64,000 nt of DNA from an uncultured Paracoccaceae bacterium (lineage in GTDB: Bacteria > Pseudomonadota > Alphaproteobacteria > Rhodobacterales > Rhodobacteraceae), in contig CAJJBH010000020.1 of the NCBI GenBank assembly GCA_905182355.1, positions 1 to 64,000 of the forward strand. The letters run 5' to 3'. The position numbers and the translations under genes were made by a program. Each line of letters opens with the position of its first letter. Position 1 is the stretch's first letter. The notes beneath the pieces are model-generated. The model did not search any database. It had not been told where the DNA came from and was given only the letters and a program-made list of their open reading frames with translations. This document shows, piece by piece, positions 76-12,611 of the stretch.

Positions 76-309
76 GCGGGTCTCCGACGCGTTGTCCTTT
101 GGCGGATCGACAAAGGTACAGAATCTAACGACCTCCACCTTATCTAGCGTTTGGCGAATTTTGAACTGCAATATTGGGGTCATTATTTAATCACGGCTGA
201 ACATTAGAATAGCGCCACAAGGGCACGTGATCGTTGTTTTTTGATCCCAACACGCAGATTCATACACGCACGAGGCAGTAATAACGAAACCCAAAAGAGG
301 TTCGGCAGT

Positions 310-1310
310 ATGAGAAGTTATGTAAGCGTTTGCGCTTTAGCGCTGGTCGTTGGTGCGTGCAGCGTGTCCAGCCCGATTGACAGCACTGTGGTTCCCAGCT
401 CTGCCTTGGGTGCCGGAACAACCACAACGCCGACCACTCCTACGACGTCAACAACCGCCATCCCTGCTGATGTTCAAGGTTCGGTTACGTCATTTGCTTA
501 TGACCCTGCTACACAGTCACTTACCATCTCTGGTATTTCCTTTGATGCCGAAGCCATCGCGGTGTCTTACCGTCGCCGCACAGCATTAGACATTACAGCT
601 GCTGATGGCCGCATCGCTTATGAAGCTTACACAGCCCAAGATGATCCTCTTGATGAACACACAACAGCCTACGTCAAATCAATCAGCGACATGACAGCCA
701 CGGTCGCGGTGACAGGTGGCCAGCTTACGTATTATGACGGCGGCACATTGTTCAACCGAACAGGAAACATACGACCCTGTCGTGGCTGATGCAGCTAATA
801 ACACAGGCCTTGTTTCATATGCTGGTGCCTATATTGGATTGTGCAATGTAAACGGTGTAAATACCGATCTGGCCCCTACAGCAGGCACCCCCCGCAGATA
901 TTAGACCGTTTCAGGCATCCACTGTGAATGGCCGCATTTTTATCAATGTGGATTTTGCGCAAAACAGAATTGGGGGCCTTATTTACAGCCGGACATTAAC
1001 TGTACCAGACCCAACCACGGGGGCACCCGTCATTGAAAATGTACCAAACCTGATTTTAGTACCGACCAATCTGGCGGACGACGGGACCTTTACATCGACA
1101 TTACAAATCTCACCATTCACCGATGTTGGGAACTACGCAGGTGTTTTAGGTGGCTCAGATTCCGAAGCGATCGCCGGCAGCCTTTACGTTGACAACCACT
1201 TCGACGATCAGCGCGGTGGTGAAGAAGAATACGGCATCTTTGTTCTTGGCAAATGCGGTACGGCAGCCAGCAATGATCCAGCATTGTGTGCATCTGGTGC
1301 GGCGGAGTAA
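310..1310 (+). pseudogene. TbpB-like surface lipoprotein, disrupted by two frameshifts
   Basis: The product starts MRSYVSVCALALVVGAC, a lipoprotein signal with lipobox VVGAC, followed by a threonine/proline-rich linker (TTTTPTTPTTSTT) and beta-strand-rich sequence. The C-terminal part has features of the small barrel of transferrin-binding-protein-like lipoproteins (LYVDNHFDDQRGGEEEYGIF, then a GK-C ending). The reading moves from frame 1 to frame 2 at about 745-790 and then to frame 3 at a run of six C at 888-893; each piece continues the same protein and would give about 333 residues. An AGAGG ribosome site precedes the ATG. The stop overlaps the Slam-like gene, the usual arrangement for a surface lipoprotein and its assembly factor. 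The assignment by fold is an inference; the frameshifts are seen directly but could be sequencing indels. Confidence 0.6.
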
Positions 1311-2769
1311 AACGCGCATCCAGACCCTTGTTGCTGCGGGATGTGCGGTAATTTGTCTGGGTGCTGGGCAGTCCTTCAGCGCCGATTACACTGATGTCAC
1401 CCCTGCACAGATCCGTCAAATTTCACTGGATAAAGGGCGGTCACTGGCGGTTCAGGCGCTTAACAACAGCAATCCTGTATTGGCGATTGAAATCTCCCGT
1501 GCGCTTTGGGAGGCTGACAAACGCGATTCCGCGACGTATGCAATCATCGCCCTGGCTTATGCGCAGATGGACAACCACAAAGCTGCCCGTAAAGCCGCCG
1601 CGCAGGCCTATCGCTTTACCAAAGTGAAGCCGGACCGTTTGCAAATGGCAGAACTGGCCGCACGATCATCATTACGCGAAGGCCGCCCAACGCTAACCCA
1701 AATTTGGCTGCGCCGCGCCGCAATCAACACAAACGATGAAACCGCCACGCGTCAGATCGCACAAGACTACGGAAAAGTACGCCAACTCAATCCGTGGGGC
1801 TTTCGACTGTTTGGCAGCTTTCGCCCTTCTGACAACGTGAACAACGGGTCCGAAGGTGGCTTACAGGTCATTTATGGCGTCCCTTATATCGGACGTCTAA
1901 GCGGCGCAGACCAAGCGCTTTCAGGTCTTGTTGGCACCATAGACGCGGCTGTCAGCTACAGGTTGAATGTCACCAAAGCCAGCAGCACCAGCATCGGCGC
2001 GCGGGCCTACGTGAAACGTGTGGCCCTTAGCAATGCGGCCAAAATTCTGGCCACGCCAAACCCCACCCCACTGGACCCAAACCCGACGACACCAAGCAAC
2101 AGGGGGTTTGGCAGTACGTTCGCCGAGTTCTCACTAAAACACAGCCGCGAAATTGCAGGATCCAAACGCAATGCCATCGCCAATTATGGTTTGGCGCTTG
2201 ATGGGTCATGGTACGGGCACAACACCAACTATTATTTTGGACGGATCACTGCCGGACGGCGATGGAACTTGTCTGACAACACGCAGCTTAGTTTGAGTGG
2301 TGCTTTTGAAGTGCGCGATGTTCCCTCTTCAACCCTTGCGGACAGCACTATCGTCAGCCTGACGGGTGGTTTGGTTCGACACATGGCCCGCGGTGACACG
2401 TTGCGGTTCATGCTGACCTTTGCCGATACAGACAGCGACAGCAATCAACAGCGTTACAAAAGTGCAAATGTACGTGCAGATTACCAATTTAAAGATACGT
2501 TTGGGCCCAAAAGTTTGAACGCTAAAATCTCGGCAGGTTTGACCGTCGGGTATTCCGATTACGAGGCTTACGGTTTCTTCCCGGTCGCAGCACCTGGTGG
2601 ACGCCAAGAAACCTTTGTTTATGCGGATGTCACAGCCGTTTTCAAAAGCATCGACTATGCGAGGTTTGTGACTGCCGTGACAGTATGGGCGGGGCGTAAG
2701 TCATCAAACGTAAGTCGTTTCAACACTAAAGAATTGTCAGTTTCGTTGGGTATTCAATCAAAGTTTTGA
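1273..2769 (+). CDS. Slam-like outer-membrane protein (TPR domain plus beta-barrel)
   Basis: About 498 residues: a signal peptide (TLVAAGCAVICLGAGQSFSA), a helical TPR-like region over roughly residues 45-170 with repeated A-x-Y-A pairs, then a beta-barrel to the C-terminus ending in SLGIQSKF, an outer-membrane-type last strand ending in Phe. The transition PWGFRLFGSFRPSDNVNNGS matches the start of the DUF560 barrel in surface lipoprotein assembly modifiers (Slam), which move lipoproteins to the outer leaflet. Length also fits that family. The gene overlaps the end of the TbpB-like lipoprotein gene, as Slam genes often adjoin their clients. The start is uncertain: ATG 1273, GTG 1288 and GTG 1297 all leave a signal peptide. 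An unrelated TPR-porin is the alternative. Confidence 0.65.
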   Translation: MIQHCVHLVRRSKTRIQTLVAAGCAVICLGAGQSFSADYTDVTPAQIRQISLDKGRSLAVQALNNSNPVLAIEISRALWEADKRDSATYAIIALAYAQMDNHKAARKAAAQAYRFTKVKPDRLQMAELAARSSLREGRPTLTQIWLRRAAINTNDETATRQIAQDYGKVRQLNPWGFRLFGSFRPSDNVNNGSEGGLQVIYGVPYIGRLSGADQALSGLVGTIDAAVSYRLNVTKASSTSIGARAYVKRVALSNAAKILATPNPTPLDPNPTTPSNRGFGSTFAEFSLKHSREIAGSKRNAIANYGLALDGSWYGHNTNYYFGRITAGRRWNLSDNTQLSLSGAFEVRDVPSSTLADSTIVSLTGGLVRHMARGDTLRFMLTFADTDSDSNQQRYKSANVRADYQFKDTFGPKSLNAKISAGLTVGYSDYEAYGFFPVAAPGGRQETFVYADVTAVFKSIDYARFVTAVTVWAGRKSSNVSRFNTKELSVSLGIQSKF

Positions 2770-2833: not shown

Positions 2834-3262
2834 ATGACCCTGAAATACCTTCACACAATGATCCGCGTGGCCGATTTGGAAAAGACGATGGCCTTTTTTG
2901 AACTTCTGGGGATGAAGCAAACAAAACGCTACGACAGTGAAAGCGGTCGTTTTTCGCTGGTTTATCTTGCGGCCCCTGGTGACGAAGATTGCCCAGTTGA
3001 GTTGACGTATAATTGGGACGGCGACGACGGCCTACCGTCAGATAGCCGCCACTTTGGCCACCTCGCCTACGCAGTCGATGACATCTATGAAACCTGCCAA
3101 ATGCTGATGGACAACGGCGTCACAATGAACCGCCCGCCGCGCGACGGTAGAATGGCATTTGTCCGTACACCCGACAATATTTCCATCGAATTGCTCCAAG
3201 CTGGCGATAGTTTGGCACCCGCAGAACCTTGGACCAGCATGGAAAACATAGGCAACTGGTGA
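2834..3262 (+). CDS. Glyoxalase I-like VOC protein
   Basis: A 142-residue protein of the vicinal-oxygen-chelate fold. It begins KYLHTMIRVADLEKTMAFF, the N-terminal beta-alpha module of lactoylglutathione lyases with the first metal-ligand His at residue 6, and has the HFGHLAYAVDD segment opening the second module and ISIELLQ near the end with a Glu in the metal-ligand position. GloA detoxifies methylglyoxal as its glutathione hemithioacetal; the specific substrate here is inferred. AAAGGA precedes the ATG at good distance. The TGA overlaps a GTG that may begin the next gene, suggesting translational coupling. Confidence 0.85.
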   Translation: MTLKYLHTMIRVADLEKTMAFFELLGMKQTKRYDSESGRFSLVYLAAPGDEDCPVELTYNWDGDDGLPSDSRHFGHLAYAVDDIYETCQMLMDNGVTMNRPPRDGRMAFVRTPDNISIELLQAGDSLAPAEPWTSMENIGNW

Positions 3263-4095
3263 TCAGCTTGCGCCATACAGTGACAGGGGCAGCCGCTTCG
3301 ACGTCTGCTTCGACGGGGGCCTCTACATGCACAAATAATTTTACAGCGGCGACTGGGCGTTTCGTTTGTGGGCTAAGGGCAAAGTTCGCCTTGATGGTGA
3401 TGTTCAGTCTCTGCGCCCTACCCGCCCATGCGATTGAGTGCCGGTTGGCCCTTTTGTTGGCCATTGATGTCTCCAGTTCGGTCGATAAAACCGAAGACCA
3501 GTTGCAACGCGGTGGCTTGGTGGCTGCCCTGACCGCCCCTGAAGTCACGGCGGCGTTTTTCGCAAGCGATACACCTGTAGCATTGGCGATTTATGAATGG
3601 TCGGGCCGATACAATCAGGAGATTATCTTAGATTGGATCCTTATAAATTCACCTGCAAAGTTGTTGGGAGCCGCCGAAGTTGTGGCTGCAAGCACGCGCA
3701 GTCACAATGATTTCCCCACGGCGATGGGCTACGCGTTAGGCTATGGCGCTGGCATGTTTGAACGTGCGCCCAATTGCTTGCATCAAACACTTGATATGGC
3801 AGGGGATGGACAAAACAACGAAGGATTTCCGCCTTCTTCTGCCTATAGTGCCTTCCCCTTCTATGGCGTGACCGTTAACGGTTTAGTTGTAAACGCCGCC
3901 GACTTTGAAGCCGAAACAGAACTGATCCCCTTCTATCTGAACGAAGTTATTCGTGGGCCCGGTGCATTTATCGAAATCGCCCAAGGGTTTGAGGACTATG
4001 AAAGGGCCATGCGCCGTAAACTTGAACGCGAATTGTCATTGCGCTTTATCGGCACAATCATTCACCCAAATTCCAACCCGAAAGACGCTGGGTGA
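3259..4095 (+). CDS. DUF1194 secreted VWA-like protein (first of a tandem pair)
   Basis: Function unknown. The mature part opens IECRLALLLAIDVSSSVDK, in which DVSSS matches the metal-ion-dependent adhesion motif DxSxS of von Willebrand A-like folds, and later has LDMAGDGQNN and the FEDYERAMRRKLERE C-terminal helix typical of DUF1194. A signal peptide is visible (RAKFALMVMFSLCALPAHA). Start choice is uncertain: GTG 3259 overlaps the VOC stop (GTGA) but adds a low-complexity Ala/Ser/Thr stretch, while ATG 3394 gives a short signal without its basic residues. The stop overlaps the next gene by 4 bases. Probably an exported protein. Confidence 0.75.
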   Translation: MISLRHTVTGAAASTSASTGASTCTNNFTAATGRFVCGLRAKFALMVMFSLCALPAHAIECRLALLLAIDVSSSVDKTEDQLQRGGLVAALTAPEVTAAFFASDTPVALAIYEWSGRYNQEIILDWILINSPAKLLGAAEVVAASTRSHNDFPTAMGYALGYGAGMFERAPNCLHQTLDMAGDGQNNEGFPPSSAYSAFPFYGVTVNGLVVNAADFEAETELIPFYLNEVIRGPGAFIEIAQGFEDYERAMRRKLERELSLRFIGTIIHPNSNPKDAG

Positions 4096-4811
4096 AACGT
4101 ATCACCCCAACGTTGCTGGCCAGTTCACTATGGTTATCAGCCTTATCTTTCAGCGTCGCCGCAGAATGTAGACAGGCCTTGGCCTTAGGTCTTGATGTTT
4201 CTGGATCAGTTGACGCGCGCGAATACCGGCTTCAAATGGATGGGTTGGCACAGGCGCTGAAGTCCCCCGATGTCACCATTGCTTTACTGGCACAGCCTAC
4301 CACCCCCATAAAGTTGTTGGTCTATGAGTGGAGCGGACCAAACGACCAGCACATCGTTGTGCCATGGACAAACATTACAAGTGACAAAAGCCTTGTGATG
4401 ATTACCAAAAAATTAAATGAAACACAGCGGCGTAACGCCAGCCCCGGCACCGCGTTGGGGCAAGCCATGATTGCAGGCACCAGCTATTTAAACCAAACCC
4501 GATGCTGGTCAAAAACCTTGGATATATCTGGGGATGGTGAATCGAATTTGGGGCCACGCCCAAGGGACGTTAAACCCCTTTTGGAAACATCTAATGTCAC
4601 CATCAACGCACTGGTGATTGGGTCAGATGATGCGGTTATCGGCGACACACGTCAGGTTGAAATTTCACGCCTGTCTGCTTATTTTCGCGCAGAAGTCATC
4701 CTAGGAGCAGACGCCTTTGTCGAGACGTCCCTTGGTTTTAAGGACTACGCAGCGGCCATGACACGCAAACTATTGCGCGAAATCAAGGTGCTGCAATTGT
4801 CGATGCGCTAG
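4092..4811 (+). CDS. DUF1194 secreted VWA-like protein (second of a tandem pair)
   Basis: A 239-residue paralogue of the preceding gene. Its signal peptide is clear (MKRITPTLLASSLWLSALSF, cleaved after VAA) and is followed by ECRQALALGLDVSGSVDARE with a DxSxS motif, the cysteine pattern of its neighbour, KTLDISGDGESN and FKDYAAAMTRKLLRE at the end. It starts with GTG inside the preceding stop (GTGA), so translation is likely coupled. The biological role of DUF1194 proteins is not known to me; the motif suggests metal-dependent ligand binding in the periplasm. Confidence 0.82.
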   Translation: MKRITPTLLASSLWLSALSFSVAAECRQALALGLDVSGSVDAREYRLQMDGLAQALKSPDVTIALLAQPTTPIKLLVYEWSGPNDQHIVVPWTNITSDKSLVMITKKLNETQRRNASPGTALGQAMIAGTSYLNQTRCWSKTLDISGDGESNLGPRPRDVKPLLETSNVTINALVIGSDDAVIGDTRQVEISRLSAYFRAEVILGADAFVETSLGFKDYAAAMTRKLLREIKVLQLSMR

Positions 4812-10703: not shown

Positions 10704-11300
10704 CCCGGCGGTATATGATAACTACAGACAATACCTCAAATGCCCAAATGGACGGCGAGACGATCATCGGTATCGTGTTACTATCCGATTGTGCCGCATG
10801 CTGCCGAAGGGCCAGATTTTGGCACGCCTAGCACTTAGCCCGATTGCTATTCAAGCGTTACAAATGCGTGATCTAAGACAGCGAGGCATCTATCAGAATA
10901 ATACTAACCTGAACGGCAGCTTCGTCCCGCACTGTTGAATTCGAGCATGATGCAGCAAAAGCTCGGGTTGAAATCCACCCAGATCGGTAACATTGAATGG
11001 CCACTTCCACGACGCAGGCCGCATCGCAGCAAAAGTACTGCTGCAGCTGCGAGGGAAATCTGCATCGCAATTGCTGCGCCTGCATAGATCCAGATTGTGC
11101 GGCATATCGGCCATCACGTTTATTTTTCCAAAACCCTCGCAACCAACTTTAGAAAGTTGTCGGCACTTTACCATCCAACGCCTCCACAACGCAAAGACGT
11201 AGGGTCACATCTTGATCCAAAATATTTCTGTGCCAGTGTGATGCCATACCAAGTTCCACTTCACGTTACCCCAGTTTCTTTTTCAAGATCGGAGAAAACG
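10704..11300. other. Intergenic stretch without a convincing gene
   Basis: Nearly 600 bases between the decayed acyltransferase and the hydrolase at 11301. Open frames of about 90-110 codons exist on both strands, but they lack ribosome sites, have rare-residue-rich compositions (many Cys, Arg, Gln) and match nothing I recognise. A short perfect hairpin (CAACTTT, 2-base loop, AAAGTTG) is at 11143-11158. The region may be gene debris; nothing more can be supported. Confidence 0.4.
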
Positions 11301-12611
11301 ATGACCCTACTTTCACGCGTAACAGCGTCCCTACTTGTCCCAATTTCGATAGGCGCCACCATGAGCCTTGCCACATTCGCAGCCGCCAATCCCATCGACA
11401 CGATCCGCCCTGACGCGCCTGCGCTGTCAGCATATGGCGATCACCCGATTGGTGTTCAAACATTCACGTTCACCAATGCAGGTCAGATCGACATTGTGAA
11501 CACAACCGCAGATGCTGCCCCAACTTATGACCGCCCCCTGACGGTCGAGGTCTGGTATCCAGCGGCAGACGGCACGGCCCAAGGCGGCAACTACACCGCA
11601 ATATTGCGTGACGGAAAAACCGAAGTTCCCCTCACAGGCCAAGCTGCACGCGACGCAACGCCGACATCGGGCGAAAAGTTCCCACTTGTGGTGATTTCAC
11701 ACGGCTATCCCGGCAATCGCTACTTGATGGCGCATTTGGGTGAAAACCTTGCCTCTAAAGGGTACGTGACCGTTTCGATTGACCACACAGACAGCACCTA
11801 TTCTGACCAAGGCGCGTTTGGCTCAACCTTGCTCAACCGTCCAATCGACCAACGTTTTATCATTGATCAAATGGAAGCGATGCAAGGTCCACTTGGCGAC
11901 ATTATCGACGCCAGCACCACAGGTGTAATCGGCTATTCCATGGGCGGCTACGGCGCGCTGATCTTTGGCGGCGCGGGCGTCACCCAAGGGTCTACAGAAT
12001 ATCCATGGGGCACACCAAACGGCTTGCTCACAGCCCACCTTGCTGGGTCCGACACGCATAAAGCACTGATGGATGACCGCGTCAAAGCGACAATTGCGAT
12101 CGGTCCATGGGGCAACAACGCAGGCTTCTGGGACGCGACAGGTTTGTCCGGCTTCTCCAAGCCATTGATGTTGATGGCAGGCGGCGTCGATGACGTTTCG
12201 GTCTATTCGGCTATTCGCGGCATCTTTGATGGCACCACCAGCACGGACCGCCACCTGTTGACGTTCGACAATGCCAACCACAACGCAGCCGCGCCAATGG
12301 CCCCGCCGGCCGAGGCACTTGCGATGACAGCAAAAGGCGAAAGTGGTCCTTATGACCATTACGCAGATGCTGTCTGGGACAACACGCGCATGAACAATAT
12401 TACGCAGCACTTTGCGACGGCGTTCATGAACACACACCTAAAGGCAGACACGGACATGGCCCAATACTTTGACCTGATCCCAGTGTCTGGTGAAGGCGTA
12501 ACAGCAGTAGATGATGCAGGCAAAACAACCGCCGATCACACTTACTGGAATGGGTTCCAGCCGCGTACAGCTGTTGGCCTACGTTTTGAATCCAAAGCCA
12601 AAGGCGAATAA
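11301..12611 (+). CDS. Secreted alpha/beta hydrolase (dienelactone hydrolase/PAF-acetylhydrolase-like)
   Basis: 436 residues with a signal peptide (LLVPISIGATMSLATFAAA) and an alpha/beta-hydrolase core. The region LTVEVWYPA near residue 80, FPLVVISHGYPGNRY, and the nucleophile elbow GYSMGGYG (Ser in G-x-S-x-G) are as in platelet-activating-factor acetylhydrolase and dienelactone hydrolase-type enzymes; DNANHN late in the protein could supply the catalytic His. Probably a periplasmic esterase or lipase. GGAG lies 6 bases before ATG 11301. The stop overlaps the ATG of the next hydrolase by one base (TAATG), so both are one transcription unit. Confidence 0.85.
   Translation: MTLLSRVTASLLVPISIGATMSLATFAAANPIDTIRPDAPALSAYGDHPIGVQTFTFTNAGQIDIVNTTADAAPTYDRPLTVEVWYPAADGTAQGGNYTAILRDGKTEVPLTGQAARDATPTSGEKFPLVVISHGYPGNRYLMAHLGENLASKGYVTVSIDHTDSTYSDQGAFGSTLLNRPIDQRFIIDQMEAMQGPLGDIIDASTTGVIGYSMGGYGALIFGGAGVTQGSTEYPWGTPNGLLTAHLAGSDTHKALMDDRVKATIAIGPWGNNAGFWDATGLSGFSKPLMLMAGGVDDVSVYSAIRGIFDGTTSTDRHLLTFDNANHNAAAPMAPPAEALAMTAKGESGPYDHYADAVWDNTRMNNITQHFATAFMNTHLKADTDMAQYFDLIPVSGEGVTAVDDAGKTTADHTYWNGFQPRTAVGLRFESKAKGE

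Follow-up and report, generated by a model that had tools for sequence, protein, structure and literature searches.

At the start of a contig from an uncultured Paracoccaceae bacterium, a gene for a putative outer-membrane protein (OMP) overlaps the end of a lipoprotein gene that is spread over three reading frames. The arrangement raises the question of whether the two encode a translocator and its surface-anchored cargo and, if so, what has become of the pair in this organism. The window analysed here comprises 64,000 nucleotides from the start of a 77 kb contig; the assembly holds 2.74 Mb in 100 contigs and is 87% complete. The locus is very probably a marine "cluster 3" T11SS (Slam) pair of the Roseobacter/Rhodobacter group, whose cargo would be surface-anchored in intact relatives and is broken, as assembled, in the window, fitting a decay of the pair that extends through the genus.

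A locus of the same synteny was published in 2025 as the marine Roseobacter/Rhodobacter cluster 3 T11SS (PMC12282271), so that a Slam in such a host is not the surprise for which the first-pass annotation of this DNA had taken it. The synteny was described in 11 strains, ten of which have a predicted barrel lipoprotein, while over 145 cluster 3 OMPs a TbpB-type domain is rare (8 loci), DUF1194 adjoins 102 and TonB neighbours are rare (PMC12282271). The survey left the client open, asking whether the marine translocators keep a barrel lipoprotein as cargo, use DUF1194 proteins, or use neither and have changed function (PMC12282271).

The locus and its neighbours

From left to right, the window carries thyA (5' end only, minus strand), the lipoprotein gene in three frames, the OMP gene, a glyoxalase gene and two DUF1194 genes (Table 1). 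The minus-strand open frame at 1-183 contains MKQYHAALREILEQGEVTTDRTGTG, the same as in thyA of relatives. With the thyA 5' end, gloA and two DUF1194 genes in place, the window has the synteny of the marine cluster 3 T11SS. It shares with the published Rhodobacteraceae/Roseobacteraceae locus (Fig. 8 of PMC12282271) a thymidylate synthase, an 8-strand-barrel lipoprotein, a T11SS OMP, a lactoylglutathione lyase and DUF1194 side by side, but here thyA takes the place of the flavin-dependent thyX upstream, and the cargo gene is broken. The locus thus belongs to an already described kind, with the cargo gene broken as assembled.

Table 1. Features at the left end of the window
Feature	Coordinates	Strand	Remarks
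thyA (thymidylate synthase), 5' end	77..183 (bounds approximate)	-	truncated by contig start; conserved upstream neighbour
Cargo lipoprotein, piece 1	310..789	+	lipobox signal peptide, Thr/Pro linker, N-terminal domain; stop ends frame
Cargo lipoprotein, piece 2	755..904	+	second frame, homologous part
Cargo lipoprotein, piece 3	891..1310	+	third frame; most of C-terminal barrel, two conserved Cys
Slam/T11SS OMP	1273..2769	+	TPR domain and 14-strand barrel; alternative starts possible
gloA-like glyoxalase	2834..3262	+	conserved downstream neighbour, whether the pair is present or not
DUF1194 (PF06707) gene 1	3229..4095	+	neighbour of gloA; annotated start uncertain
DUF1194 (PF06707) gene 2	4092..4811	+	Pfam match

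The window's genus, like some other members of the family, has thyA (with folA) at this locus, whereas most of the remainder have thyX. Ten other open reading frames surveyed in the window are ordinary metabolic genes; an alpha/beta hydrolase at 11097-12608 has a PETase-like Pfam match (PF12740, 8.4e-14).

A Slam-type outer-membrane protein

An open frame of 539 codons (1150 to 2769) holds the OMP, with plausible starts at an ATG (1273) and two GTG codons (1288 and 1297), every one of which overlaps the end of the lipoprotein frame. Taken alone, the window protein reveals little. It has no PF04575 match at E<=1 in a Pfam search; Pfam, NCBIfam and PDB sequence searches returned nothing useful, the PDB sequence matches being to TPR proteins only and to no Slam; and as sole query it found no relative in the search for related loci, which succeeded when a closer alignment served as query. 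The OMP homologues share 20-49% identity, and among the 19 proteins of the same alignment 16 match PF04575 (SlipAM, DUF560; E<=0.1, best 1.9e-10) and ten match TPR_19. An AlphaFold2 model of the window OMP built from 17 sequences (mean pLDDT 79) predicts an N-terminal TPR domain of seven helices at residues 45-165 followed by a C-terminal barrel whose 14 strands lie within residues 168-490. The top PDB matches of this model in Foldseek are the TPR-plus-barrel exporters BcsC and PelB and the 14-strand porin OmpG, with no solved Slam among the matches listed. Since the protein's own sequence lacks a PF04575 match, its family membership rests on its relatives, the alignment and the model, and by these computations it is a member. 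The Slam-like translocator recognized at first pass is thereby borne out, by the profile matches of its relatives and by the TPR-plus-barrel model.

The lipoprotein gene is broken as assembled

The lipoprotein frame begins at 310 with MRSYVSVCALALVVGAC, which includes a lipobox whose Cys is invariant in 15 relatives, continues into a Thr/Pro-rich linker and is closed by the stop codon at 787-789. The homologous sequence then moves to a second frame (within 713-901), followed by a third (within 861-1307, stop at 1308-1310). Because the three pieces match the intact 309-residue cargo of a relative (L048) collinearly, over residues 1-138, 134-180 and 180-306 at 42, 43 and 46% identity, the window gene contains two frame changes, one near 765 and one near 890 within a run of six C; the two frameshifts reported at first pass are indeed in the sequence. 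The cargo gene that adjoins the OMP is therefore a broken copy as assembled and, as read, would encode a stub of just 159 residues that lacks most of the barrel. Programmed frameshifting was considered and rejected, since relatives have one uninterrupted frame there and no conserved slippery site.

In relatives, the cargo and OMP genes overlap or are separated by 2-20 bases. If translation of the OMP is coupled to that of the overlapping cargo end, the stop at 787-789 might also uncouple the two. Near the C-terminus of the cargo lie two cysteines, C294 and C305 in L048 numbering, that do not vary among 15 Roseobacter relatives and that the third window piece also has; a disulfide between them is possible.

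The cargo has the fold of known Slam clients

Pfam and NCBIfam searches of the window pieces gave nothing useful, PDB sequence searches gave no TbpB match, and PF01298 matches two of 15 cargo relatives (best 6.2e-7). The structure was modelled on the intact L048 cargo rather than on the broken window copy. The model (pLDDT 82) contains a C-terminal 8-strand TbpB-like barrel, the counterpart of which is split across frames in the window, and its first matches are the TbpB C-lobe and fHbp. In VIA-align comparisons it scored Z 17.0 against fHbp (163 residues, 2.4 A), 14.2 against apo hemophilin (7rea; 201 residues, 3.5 A), 12.3 against HpuA (204 residues, 4.0 A) and 11.8 against the TbpB C-lobe (191 residues, 4.4 A). 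Hemophilin (HphA) is itself a T11SS cargo; the likeness to it is one of fold, and unlike it the cargo here carries a lipobox. Slam is known to have TbpB, fHbp and HpuA among its clients (PMC5449769).

The locus has in common with Neisseria Slam1 and Slam2 (PMC5449769) a TPR domain joined to a 14-strand barrel and a TbpB-like 8-strand-barrel lipoprotein as (here putative) client, often adjacent. It differs from them in that the window OMP alone has no PF04575 match, no TonB receptor was found in the genome and the cargo has a single barrel.

The lipoprotein, not DUF1194, follows the translocator

A full-length OMP is present in about half of 199 family genomes. Profiles built in this analysis were run against a collection of 80 OMP loci. 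The cargo gene lies upstream of the OMP in 78 of the 80, the two others being L118, where the OMP stands at another locus, and L124, in which thyX abuts the OMP. Cargo is thus almost always present beside such an OMP in this sample, whereas the domain search of the earlier survey found it rarely (PMC12282271). Whole-genome searches with the cargo profile detected none in 32 genomes without this OMP (28 family genomes, some of which have distant, weak OMP matches, together with G003, G004, G006 and G008), and the sole match among 35 genomes searched was in G070, whose OMP has an internal stop. These counts are non-independent, the cargo profile having been seeded from OMP loci and the genomes being related. 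Adjacency of cargo and OMP, and their joint loss, are direct results of the computation.

The DUF1194 genes behave differently. That their products are the client in place of the barrel lipoprotein, a possibility raised in the earlier survey, might seem attractive given their place beside 102 of 145 cluster 3 OMPs (PMC12282271) and the two copies in the window. However, DUF1194 occurs within 1.5 kb of gloA about equally with the OMP (56/75 loci) and without it (18/28; Fisher P=0.33), and none is found at 22 of 78 testable OMP loci, including that of a congener with an intact pair (G002). Because cargo tracks OMP presence while the frequency of DUF1194 at gloA does not, cargo follows the OMP and DUF1194 follows gloA, and a DUF1194 client is most improbable. 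The barrel lipoprotein is the likely client, judging from these sequence comparisons; its TbpB-like barrel, suspected at first pass, is upheld by the fold matches, the PF01298 matches in relatives and the adjacency. With a wider sample and a dedicated profile, the client question left by the survey is sharpened, the barrel lipoprotein being favoured and DUF1194 appearing as a neighbour of gloA.

We know of no experiment on any cluster 3 T11SS. The experimentally verified T11SS cases all belong to cluster 1 (PMC12282271), and it is by analogy with Neisseria and other cluster 1 Slams that translocation is proposed here. On this model, Sec would export the lipoprotein of intact relatives; once lipidated, it would thread the Slam-type barrel, guided by its own C-terminal 8-strand barrel, to become anchored at the cell surface. 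In the window the translocator frame is still open, alongside the two frame changes in its cargo.

Decay of the pair in the genus

The state of the pair varies among congeners. It is intact in G002, G005, G009 and G011; the cargo is broken and the OMP open in the window, G001 and G010; and G007 (L065, 3599-5415) has a pseudogene pair, in which the cargo has lost a large internal segment and shifts frame close to its start and the OMP is split. In G006, G003 and G004 (L045, L046 and L047) both genes are cleanly gone between thyA and gloA, with the last ~25 OMP codons remaining at the same junction. The lesions are of different kinds and fall at scattered positions in a tree built from gloA, aatA and a MarR-like gene, and only G003, G004 and G006 share a junction. 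For these reasons a common origin of all the damage in one ancestral lesion was rejected. Broken cargo occurs in four of eight OMP-bearing genomes of the genus versus 2 of 71 elsewhere (about 70 testable loci; P=0.0006), a comparison in which the genus assemblies are the poorer. From the sequences of these loci, the pair is decaying in the window's genus, where it is found intact, with cargo broken, with both genes broken, or with both excised. By the route that these states suggest, the cargo would often break while the translocator stays open, and one group would have deleted both together.

The two cases of broken cargo outside the genus are in G024 and G070. In G024 (L040, 4349-4504) the cargo frame shifts at a C7 run just past the lipobox. 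The near-complete genome G070 (L114) appears to have both genes damaged: an A7 run puts the start of its cargo gene out of frame, and a TGA interrupts its OMP.

Considering that the window comes from a metagenome bin in 100 contigs, that one of its two frame changes sits in a C6 run, and that its three pieces bear no further lesion and are collinear with intact relatives, the changes could be sequencing or assembly errors in a cargo gene that is intact and working in the organism. We regard this as a serious possibility, if somewhat short of an even chance. No second clearly split gene was seen in the 64 kb when the tiling of open reading frames was judged by eye, and the cargo is broken far more often in the genus than elsewhere, although assembly quality differs between the two groups. 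The damage in G007 and the excision shared by G003, G004 and G006 are hard to explain as read errors. A different reading of the same lesions is that the gene is phase-variable, toggled on and off by slippage in short runs, as the C6 run in the window, the C7 run in G024 and the A7 run just past the start codon in G070 might suggest. This is improbable: the runs are short and not conserved in position, the lesions of L063 and L064 lie outside such runs, and G007 and G070 have additional OMP damage. Decay of the pair accommodates these lesions, and we infer that the two frame changes in the window are more likely real than not.

A possible surface function without TonB receptors

The fold common to TbpB, HpuA and hemophilin suggests a nutrient-capture protein, a haemophore or metal binder, that passes its ligand to a TonB-dependent receptor, and a nutrient-capture role had been proposed at first pass. 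Genomes were searched for such receptors with the Plug and barrel models (PF07715 and PF00593), both of which match in control genomes. Neither model detected one in the window's genome (G000; 2.74 Mb, 87% complete). Among 28 OMP-bearing genomes tested, receptors were found in 18 and were undetectable by both models in ten, six of which (G018, G081, G134, G136, G199 and G230) have intact cargo and a completeness of at least 99%. Since ten of the 28 have no detectable receptor, handover to a TonB receptor is not the general role of the cargo. The rarity of TonB neighbours in cluster 3 (PMC12282271) likewise speaks against nutrient capture. So does the closest fold match, which is to fHbp. fHbp is not a nutrient receptor.

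The nutrient-capture proposal is thus weakened to an unlikely one, although a receptor-coupled role may apply in the 18 genomes that have receptors. A TonB-independent surface function such as binding or adhesion appears the better fit, and the existence of intact pairs where no receptor is detectable points to a role different from that of the haem and transferrin pairs known in pathogens. Tentatively, the marine T11SS pairs might carry a class of TonB-independent surface lipoproteins that is repeatedly disappearing from some Roseobacter lineages, in many cases starting with the cargo. Intact pairs are carried by cultured isolates of Leisingera, Tropicibacter and Seohaeicola.
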